DNA of 37,156 bases, from NCBI GenBank assembly GCA_007131685.1, contig SLQD01000139.1, forward strand, positions 1-37,156, written 5' to 3'. Source of the DNA: Paracoccaceae bacterium. Its GTDB lineage: Bacteria > Pseudomonadota > Alphaproteobacteria > Rhodobacterales > Rhodobacteraceae. Both the position numbers and the translations under genes were made by a program. This document shows positions 4,679 through 7,532 of the stretch, one piece after another. The notes below the pieces were generated by a model. That model was not told the DNA's origin and ran no database searches. It was given only the letters and a program-made list of their open reading frames with translations. Each line of letters begins with the position of its first letter. Position 1 is the stretch's first letter.

Positions 4679-6502
4679 TTACTCGGACCACCAGAGCTCG
4701 GGCTGAAAGCCGATCCAGTCCCCGTAGATCGGCAGGCGATCGGGATACTGCAGCCGGCTCCTGTGGGCGATGCGCGAGACATCGGAATACCAGAACGGGA
4801 TCACGTAGCGTCCCGTGGAGAGCGCCCGGTCGAGCGCGCGCGTCGCGGCGACGAATTCCTCATGCGAGTCGGTGGTCAGCATCCGGTCGATCATGGCGTC
4901 GATGGCCGGCGACTCGACGCCCATCCAGTTGCGCGAGCCGGGCTGGTCGGCGGCCTCCGAGCCCCAGTACTGGCGCTGCTCGTTGCCGGGGCTGAGCGAG
5001 AGCGAGCGGGTGTAGCGGGTCATGTCGAAATCGAAATTGTTGGTGCGCTCGCGCAGTTGCGCGCTGTCGATGACATTGACGCGCGCCTCGATGCCGAGCC
5101 GCCTGAGCGCCTCGACATAGGCATTGGCCACGGCCTGGGTGTCGCGCGCGCCCTGTGACAGCAGGATCTCGAAGCGAAAGGCCCGCCCGTCCGCATCGCG
5201 CAGCACCCCGTCCTCGACGCGCCAGCCCGCCGCCTCGAGCAGCGCCATCGCCCGACGCATATTGGCGCGGTTGCCCTCGCTGCCATCGGAGGCGGGCAAG
5301 GTGTAGCCGTCGAGCGCGCCGGGTTTGAGCGCATCTGCGAAGGGGTCGAGCAGCTCGCGCACGCGGCCCTCGGCGGGGCCGTCGCGCATGCCGAGCTCGG
5401 AGTTCGAGAAATAGGAGGTGATGCGCGGCTCGGCCCCGTCATTGACGATCTTGTTGATGAACTCGAAGTTGAAGGCGAGGATGAGCGCCTCGCGCACGCG
5501 CCAGTCGCTGAAGCGGTCGCGCCGGGTGTTGAAGACGAAGCCGGTGATGCCCGAGGGGCGCTCGTGCTCGATCTCGGACTTGACCACCTCGCCCTCGCGC
5601 AACGCCGGGAAATCGTAGCGCCGCTGCCAGCGCACCGGGCTCGACTCGCGGTAGGTGTCGAGATTGCCGGCGGTGAAGGCCTCGAAGATCACGTTGCCGT
5701 CGGCGAAATACTCGTAGCGGATCTCGTCGAGATTGTGCTGGCCGCGATTGAAGGGCAGGTCTGCGCCCCACCAGTCCGGGTTCTTCTCGAAGGCGACATG
5801 GCGGCCGGGCTCGAAGTCGCCCACCACATAGGGGCCGGACCCGATCACCGGGTCGAGGCCGGAGCGGGCGAAGTCGCGCGCCTCGAACTGCGCCTTCTGC
5901 AGGATCGGGCGCAGCCCGAGGATCAGCGGCAGCTCGCGGTCCTGCTCGCGGAAGGTGAAGCGCACCGAGCGCGGGCCGGTGCGCTCCATCGTCTCGATAT
6001 TGGCCCAGGCGCCGTGATAGCGCGGATGGCCGTCGGTCCCGAGTGTTTCGAAGGACCATTTCACATCCTCGATCGTGACCGGGCTGCCATCGGAGAAGCG
6101 CGCCTCCTCGCGCAGGGTGAACTCGACGAAATCGCGCGCGTCGTTGGTCTTCACCGACTCGGCGAGCAGGCCATAGAGCGTGAACGGTTCGTCGTAGCTG
6201 CGCCCCATCAGGCTTTCGACGGTGAGCGAGCTCTGCGCCCAGGGCGCCGTTCCGGCGAGGATGAAGGGGTTGAGCGAATCGAATCCCCCCGACTCGCCGA
6301 ACACGATCCGCCCGCCCTGCGGCGCGTCCGCGTTGGCATGGGGCAGGGATTCGAAATCGGGCGGCAGCTCCGGCGCTCCATACATCGCGATGCCGTGCTC
6401 GCCCGCCAGTGTGGCCCCGGCCCCCGCCGCGGCGAGCGCAAGGGCCTTGAAAACAAGGATCGAGCGCGGCTTTACCGCGCGGAACAGGGGGGGTGCGTGC
6501 AA
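4679..6502 (-). CDS. Peptide-type ABC transporter substrate-binding protein (SBP family 5, YejA-like), orphan
   Basis: EHGIAMYGAPELPPDFESLPHANADAPQGGRIVFGESGGFDSLNPFI... typical of YejA-type SBPs. The track start corresponds to TTG at 6502 with GAGG upstream; no in-frame ATG precedes the mature region. Confidence 0.88.
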   Translation of the reverse strand: MHAPPLFRAVKPRSILVFKALALAAAGAGATLAGEHGIAMYGAPELPPDFESLPHANADAPQGGRIVFGESGGFDSLNPFILAGTAPWAQSSLTVESLMGRSYDEPFTLYGLLAESVKTNDARDFVEFTLREEARFSDGSPVTIEDVKWSFETLGTDGHPRYHGAWANIETMERTGPRSVRFTFREQDRELPLILGLRPILQKAQFEARDFARSGLDPVIGSGPYVVGDFEPGRHVAFEKNPDWWGADLPFNRGQHNLDEIRYEYFADGNVIFEAFTAGNLDTYRESSPVRWQRRYDFPALREGEVVKSEIEHERPSGITGFVFNTRRDRFSDWRVREALILAFNFEFINKIVNDGAEPRITSYFSNSELGMRDGPAEGRVRELLDPFADALKPGALDGYTLPASDGSEGNRANMRRAMALLEAAGWRVEDGVLRDADGRAFRFEILLSQGARDTQAVANAYVEALRRLGIEARVNVIDSAQLRERTNNFDFDMTRYTRSLSLSPGNEQRQYWGSEAADQPGSRNWMGVESPAIDAMIDRMLTTDSHEEFVAATRALDRALSTGRYVIPFWYSDVSRIAHRSRLQYPDRLPIYGDWIGFQPELWWSE

Positions 6503-6565
6503 GCTCGGGACCTCGCGTTCTTGTGGAGATTATTCGCCCAACCCGATGGTTTCAAACTTTTTGGG

Positions 6566-6594
6566 TTGGACAGCCGCTCAAGAATCCGTATAAG
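6566..6594 (+). promoter_or_regulatory. Predicted sigma70-like promoter of intergenic transcript
   Basis: TTGGACA (TGGACA 6567-6572, 5/6 match to TTGACA), 16-bp spacer, TATAAG (6589-6594, 5/6 match to TATAAT). Confidence 0.6.
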
Positions 6595-6599
6595 TGACT

Positions 6600-6680
6600 C
6601 ACTGCTCGATAGGTTTCTTGCCTGTATGAAACCTGCCTCAATGACTGGACGTCCGCCTTGTGCGGACGTCTTTTTTTTCT
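6600..6680 (+). ncRNA. Candidate small RNA of about 80 nt
   Basis: Promoter immediately upstream; hairpin AGGTTTC-(10 nt)-GAAACCT (6611-6634); strong rho-independent terminator at the 3' end; no convincing ORF or RBS. Confidence 0.6.
6648..6679 (+). terminator. Rho-independent terminator
   Basis: GACGTCCGC-CTTGT-GCGGACGTC followed by TTTTTTTTCT; 9-bp perfect stem, U8 tract. Confidence 0.92.
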
Positions 6681-6693
6681 TGCAGTTGCAGCA
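6680..6693 (+). promoter_or_regulatory. Tandem TTGCAG repeat upstream of bdhA
   Basis: TTGCAGTTGCAGCA; a possible -10 TATATT lies at 6726-6731. Confidence 0.35.
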
Positions 6694-6758
6694 TCGTGAC
6701 GGGGCTGGATTTCGCGCGCGCAGAATATATTGTCGTCGCGGAACAAGGAGGAGGCACC

Positions 6759-7532
6759 ATGTCACTCGCAGGCAAGACCGCCATCGTCACCGGATCGACC
6801 TCGGGCATCGGACTGGGTATCGCGAAGGAACTCGCCCGCGCCGGGGCGTCCGTCGTTCTCAATTCCTTTACCGACAGCGGCGAGGATCATGCAACCGCCC
6901 GGGCGGTCGCGGACGAACACGGTGTCGCGGCGCGCTACGTCTCGGCGGACATGTCTGACCCGGAGGCCTGCCGCGCACTCGTCGAGCGGGCCGGGGCCTG
7001 CGACATTCTCGTCAACAATGCGGGTATTCAGCATGTCGCGCGGATCGAGGAATTCCCGCCCGCGAAATGGGATGCGATCATCGCGATCAATCTGAGTTCG
7101 GCCTTCCACACGACCGCGGCGGCGCTGCCGGGGATGAAGGCGGCGGGCTGGGGCCGGGTGCTCAACATCTCTTCGGCGCACGGGCTGACGGCCTCGCCCT
7201 ACAAGGCCGCCTATGTCGCCGCCAAGCACGGCATCGTGGGGCTGACCAAGACCACCGCGCTCGAAGTGGCCGGGCAGGGCATCACCGCGAACGCGATCTG
7301 CCCGGGCTATGTCCTCACCCCGATCGTCGAGTCGCAGATCCCCGACCAGATGAAGACCCACAACATGGACCGCGAGACCGTCATCAAGGAGGTCATGCTC
7401 GCGCGCCAGCCCTCGGGCGAGTTCGCCACCACCGAGCAGGTGGGCGGCACGGCGGTGTTCCTGTGCTCGGACGCGGCGGCGCAGATCACCGGCACCACGA
7501 TCAGCGTCGATGGCGGCTGGACGGCGCTCTGA
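6759..7532 (+). CDS. bdhA: 3-hydroxybutyrate dehydrogenase (SDR family)
   Basis: MSLAGKTAIVTGSTSGIGLGIAKELARAGA...NNAGIQHVARIEEFP...YKAAYVAAKHGIVGLTK...CPGYVLTPIVE; characteristic BdhA motifs; AGGAGG just upstream of ATG. Confidence 0.93.
   Translation: MSLAGKTAIVTGSTSGIGLGIAKELARAGASVVLNSFTDSGEDHATARAVADEHGVAARYVSADMSDPEACRALVERAGACDILVNNAGIQHVARIEEFPPAKWDAIIAINLSSAFHTTAAALPGMKAAGWGRVLNISSAHGLTASPYKAAYVAAKHGIVGLTKTTALEVAGQGITANAICPGYVLTPIVESQIPDQMKTHNMDRETVIKEVMLARQPSGEFATTEQVGGTAVFLCSDAAAQITGTTISVDGGWTAL

Follow-up and report, generated by a model that had tools for sequence, protein, structure and literature searches.

The window, by which we mean the whole analysed stretch of 37,156 nucleotides, contains a short transcription unit between an ABC transporter SBP gene on the minus strand and bdhA on the plus strand. 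Promoter, hairpin and terminator were all found by sequence check where the original prediction had placed them, at 6566-6678 of the plus strand, and the locus is laid out as follows.

4679-6502, minus strand: SBP gene; the TTG at 6502 is the first possible start and probably lies too far upstream
6551-6565, plus strand: conserved AT-rich element abutting the -35 box on its upstream side, TTTTCAAACTTTTAGC in most relatives (column counts over 137 loci, and alignments)
6566-6571, plus strand: -35 box TTGGAC, mostly preceded by C in relatives (CTTGG); TTGG kept in 129 or more of 137 loci
6589-6594, plus strand: -10 box TATAAG; the successive letters of TATAA are kept in 135, 136, 131, 129 and 104 of 137
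6600-6678, plus strand: sRNA, very probably of StsR type, 76-79 nt (about 78), with a putative start at 6600 or 6601
6602-6608, plus strand: CTGCTCG, possible second contact, complementary to CGAGCAG in the dcw leader (predicted joint fold)
6611-6634, plus strand: hairpin 1, 7 pairs and a 10-nt loop, invariant
6619-6635, plus strand: TGCCTGTATGAAACCTG, predicted to pair with the target and perfectly complementary to CAGGTTTCATACAGGCA of the dcw/UpsM leader
6648-6678, plus strand: intrinsic terminator, the stem covarying across the order and followed by T8
6759-7532, plus strand: bdhA, 3-hydroxybutyrate dehydrogenase (370 bits to TIGR01963, whose cut-off is 307)

The -35 and -10 boxes are separated by a spacer of 17 nt. 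A simple sigma-70 scan, which demands T at the last -10 position, did not pass this promoter; it is backed by comparison, in that TTGG and TATAA are conserved amid variable flanks across 137 distinct loci. In the same loci the block of perfect conservation begins at A6601, and the transcript is therefore inferred to start at 6600 or 6601, in agreement with the start near 6600 that had been proposed. The element at 6551-6565 could act as an UP element or as a regulator site. An CAAACTTTT element directly before the -35 box is kept across most of the family, reduced to CAAAC in Paracoccus. Hairpin 1 is composed of AGGTTTC (6611-6617), the loop TTGCCTGTAT (6618-6627) and GAAACCT (6628-6634), and the terminator of GACGTCCGC (6648-6656), CTTGT, GCGGACGTC (6662-6670) and T8 (6671-6678). 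Computational folding of 6600-6679 yields these two hairpins and nothing else, with an energy of -26.5 kcal/mol (z = -4.55) that none of 200 shuffles matched. The terminator, singled out beforehand as the only strong one in the window, is indeed the best of 21 terminator-like sites, and no other of them combines a stem of 10 pairs with an uninterrupted T run. We conclude that 6566-6678 is a real, orphan sRNA gene with its own promoter and Rho-independent terminator. A small-protein reading was also considered and rejected: the Paracoccus copies contain ATG AAA CCT GCC TCA TGA, but the stop is lost elsewhere, leaving no conserved ORF.

The sRNA is present as a single copy in its own genome. By BLAST, 4 of 5 genomes in the genus have it, as do 243 of 249 in the Rhodobacteraceae and 124 of 125 in Paracoccus, and a covariance model based on 50 diverse copies recovered it from all 295 Rhodobacterales genomes, each at least 90% complete. 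High scores of this model in a sample of the class were confined to the family; in 21 genomes that belong to the class but not to the family, scores were weak, 32 bits at most, and inspection revealed the 5' domain in none of these. Such weak matches are mostly terminators alone, and one (L217) is an alphaR8-like RNA. The length in relatives is 72-82 nt, and the same RNA occurs in Cereibacter flavus (L134), a congener of Rhodobacter sphaeroides. No match to the sRNA was seen in phage records, and among plasmids it is found only on the chromid-like plasmids of Paracoccus (P. versutus and P. pantotrophus). Among named genome contigs, at least 118 stretches contain an exact 32-nt core; they come from Paracoccus, Ruegeria, Roseobacter, Leisingera, Cereibacter and other genera, Neomegalonema included. 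Since this set was selected by the core itself, its invariance there comes partly from the selection. The 5' domain is unchanged also in 20 lower-scoring genomes from an unselected family search. The Neomegalonema copies (L059, L121 and L129) have the same 5' domain with unrelated terminators; no bdhA match was found at these three loci, and the SBP gene is retained only in L121.

A target for the RNA is suggested by the genome's own dcw (mraZ) leader, which carries CAGGTTTCATACAGGCA, the perfect 17-nt complement of window positions 6619-6635, at 169-185 nt before the mraZ start (G000:C179). When this genome was searched for an overlapping 18-nt version with up to 3 mismatches, only the dcw-leader site and the sRNA gene itself were retrieved, and the reversed control of the 18-nt site gave no sites at the same threshold. 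The exact target site is present in 34 of 121 genomes (reversed control, 0), and all 30 of the exact sites inspected lie 169-264 nt upstream of mraZ, which is the place of UpsM. Almost all of 40 leaders that had not been chosen for an exact site likewise have an exact or near match: 33 of them contain the 18-nt site when up to 4 mismatches are allowed (a derived count), and their longest complementary runs reach up to 18 nt versus 6-9 nt (once 11) in controls. With all leaders taken together, the site is found at this threshold in 63 of 70. Whole-leader RNAduplex energies were uninformative against random controls because large loops are allowed, and exact complementarity was used instead. Joint folding gains -24.5 kcal/mol, hardly more than the -23.7 reached by the top leader in a set of about 60 shuffled ones; the case is therefore built on the exact complementarity and on its being conserved, and not on energy. 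The joint fold also predicts a second contact, between CTGCTCG of the sRNA and a CGAGCAG that follows the main site in the leader at a distance of about 35-40 nt. The latter motif is present in 55 of 63 leaders, and this contact is only suggestive because the surrounding leader is conserved too.

The dcw-leader target, the size and the presence in Cereibacter make StsR, the 'sRNA targeting sRNA' of R. sphaeroides, the simplest reading. StsR is a 72-nt, Hfq-associated and RpoHI/RpoHII-dependent RNA, called orphan (PMC8625941), that pairs with UpsM as well as with the dcw 5' UTR and gives RNase E access (PMC8625941; PMC11354728; PMC8307010); the rpoE mRNA, paired just past its start codon, is another partner reported in R. 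sphaeroides. UpsM itself is a 206-nt product of the dcw leader that starts 268 nt before mraZ, the long dcw leader being limited to Rhodobacteraceae. RNase E cuts it to a 130-nt fragment, for which Hfq and either RpoHI or RpoHII are needed. By arithmetic, this cut, near nt 76 of UpsM, coincides with or adjoins the mapped pairing region, and the site in our dcw leader lies about where the 130-nt fragment begins.

What is found at our locus agrees with that description: an orphan, intergenic sRNA close to 72 nt with its own promoter and terminator, for which pairing with UpsM and the dcw leader is predicted from the conserved antisense site. CTTG at about -37 to -34 is compatible with RpoHI promoters, in which TTG with C-37 is conserved, but equally with a sigma-70 promoter, and the U-rich tail of the terminator would be compatible with Hfq association. 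The claim that the RNA belongs to no named family holds as far as Rfam is concerned, since a scan of the whole window gave no family at gathering score, and the sRNA is indeed without an Rfam family; it does not hold for the literature, where the dcw-leader target identifies StsR (PMC8307010, PMC8625941). Nor can the RNA be called undescribed any longer, as its perfect 17-nt complement in the dcw leader points to the published StsR. We are therefore highly confident that the sRNA at 6600-6678 is the orthologue of R. sphaeroides StsR, an assignment that is drawn from target, size, architecture and distribution, with R. sphaeroides stsR compared by its published description. The RNA with CACTGCTCGATAGGTTTCTTGCCTGTATGAAACCTGCCTCA might instead be a different, undescribed one, such that Rhodobacterales would possess two UpsM-targeting RNAs, StsR and this one. 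That comparison by description would leave room for such a pair, as would the length of 76-79 nt here, unlike the 72 nt reported in R. sphaeroides; however, a single UpsM-targeting sRNA is described in the literature we reached, an RNA present in 295 of 295 Rhodobacterales genomes is to be expected in R. sphaeroides as well, and an antisense to the most abundant exponential-phase sRNA of that organism would hardly have been overlooked. We regard the existence of two such RNAs as improbable.

Whether the unit acts in trans or on its neighbour had been left as a choice between a self-contained sRNA and an attenuated bdhA leader. The former is supported by the autonomy of the unit and by the conserved dcw-leader antisense, while the latter, which would have conditional readthrough from 6600 past the terminator control bdhA, appears very unlikely. 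It is true that 111 of 146 loci have the bdhA start no further than 450 nt downstream, but the other 35 keep the RNA unchanged while bdhA either lies beyond 450 nt or was not found on the downstream side, so the linkage is common but dispensable and the sRNA is a unit of its own. The terminator seals this unit, the interval between terminator and bdhA has a recurring TGCAGCAT motif of its own, and conservation hints at no antiterminator fold, hairpin 1 being invariant and the terminator covarying independently. The bdhA gene, with its own upstream region, is outside the sRNA unit. The interval at 6679-6758 of the window contains an TGCAGCAT-like motif in the form TTGCAGTTGCAGCATCG, and TGCAGCAT is found in 39 of the 111 loci with adjacent bdhA; the motif is reminiscent of CTGC-N-GCAG, the operator of PhaR, a PHB regulator. 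On the other side, 146 of 152 loci have a divergent ABC transporter SBP gene no more than 450 nt away. In the window the start of this gene, originally put at 6502, is probably near 6400, as its homologues start some 200 nt away from the beginning of the sRNA.

Sequence constraint on the StsR-type RNA is unevenly distributed. In the 50-sequence alignment, nucleotides 2-40 are invariant. Covarying changes had been predicted in the stem at 6611-6634 and are absent there: its seven pairs never vary, and hairpin 1 is for this reason uninformative on structure. Covariation sits in the terminator stem instead, where both sides have changed in 8 of 9 pairs (covariation score 0.219 versus 0.089 in shuffles). 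The target site drifts among genera, whereas the sRNA does not. Nucleotides 10-19 and 37-40 of the sRNA fall outside both dcw-leader contacts, and the dcw target site explains at most about 24 of the 39 invariant nucleotides. Other, equally old contacts with mRNAs or proteins, for example through nucleotides 10-19 and 37-40, are thus probable, and it is likely that further conserved StsR partners exist. For the combined proposition that the StsR-UpsM switch of one sRNA acting on another is an order-wide core control of division and that StsR has such further partners, we see the chances as evenly balanced.

By extension from R. sphaeroides, the sRNA would be made under RpoHI/RpoHII in stress and stationary phase, would associate with Hfq and would pair with UpsM and the dcw leader. 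Pairing would alter the structure of UpsM and the dcw leader such that RNase E could cleave, and cleavage would lower the amount of dcw mRNA, by which growth and division would be restrained. We propose that pairing may nucleate at the exposed 10-nt loop of hairpin 1, which would then be opened by strand exchange, because the target repeats AGGTTTC of the 5' arm and can replace that arm. Such an exchange would account for a hairpin 1 stem that is frozen without covariation.

StsR itself was already known; what is new is its near-universality in Rhodobacterales, the frozen 5' domain and the conserved target site. An anonymous intergenic signal is hereby turned into an assigned gene, and a division-restraining circuit in which one sRNA targets another, known from a single phototroph, is found encoded with frozen sequence across a major marine and soil order. 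The circuit thus becomes open to tests in laboratory roseobacters and in Paracoccus, and the sRNA alignment provides material for the missing Rfam family.

Several other RNAs invite comparison. Membership in the alphaR8/mmgR family (Rfam suhB, RF00519), with a role in regulating carbon storage that fits the bdhA neighbourhood, is suggested by an Rfam match that stays below threshold (20.4 bits, with gathering set at 41), by the effect of MmgR on polyhydroxybutyrate in Sinorhizobium (PMC12559287) and by the adjoining bdhA, but is refuted with near certainty by the lack of the defining single-stranded core UUUCCUCCCU, which neither the window RNA nor any aligned relative contains. Better candidates with ACCTCCCTGTTGGACT or TTCCTCCCTGTTGGACT elsewhere in the same genome (C192:25-92 and C134:5955-6046) also speak against membership, as does a neighbourhood of SBP gene and bdhA in place of the N-formylglutamate amidohydrolase gene. 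The likeness to alphaR8/MmgR/SisA is that of a short alphaproteobacterial sRNA with a hairpin, an unpaired stretch and a terminator, whereas core and neighbourhood differ and separate alphaR8-like genes coexist in the same genome. These two alphaR8-like sRNAs (G000:C192:25-92 and G000:C134:5955-6046; L036 and L043) consist of CCTCCCTGTTGGACT followed by a strong terminator; both are below the Rfam gathering cut-off, so RF00519 seems to cover Rhodobacterales members poorly. The best raw Rfam score at the sRNA locus belongs to Hrs13 (RF02631), an Hfq-regulated sRNA of Erwinia amylovora that shares the two-hairpin layout; it was rejected because the match scores 26 bits where gathering requires 52, because the first hairpin lacks four of its pairs in this match, and because the lineage is unrelated. 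'Intergenic 134' of Paracoccus denitrificans is, by description, an intergenic sRNA of 84 nt whose conservation extends over Rhodobacteraceae and which is probably located on chromosome 2 (PMC5107571), a location that recalls the chromid-like plasmids carrying our sRNA in P. versutus and P. pantotrophus; unlike for our sRNA, the published matches of 'Intergenic 134' include unrelated phyla (PMC5107571). UpsM, the dcw/mraZ-leader sRNA of Rhodobacteraceae, would be the partner and target of the RNA described here and is not the same RNA. With StsR (formerly RSs0827), our sRNA shares its orphan status, a promoter of its own, a similar size and the predicted pairing with the dcw/UpsM leader.
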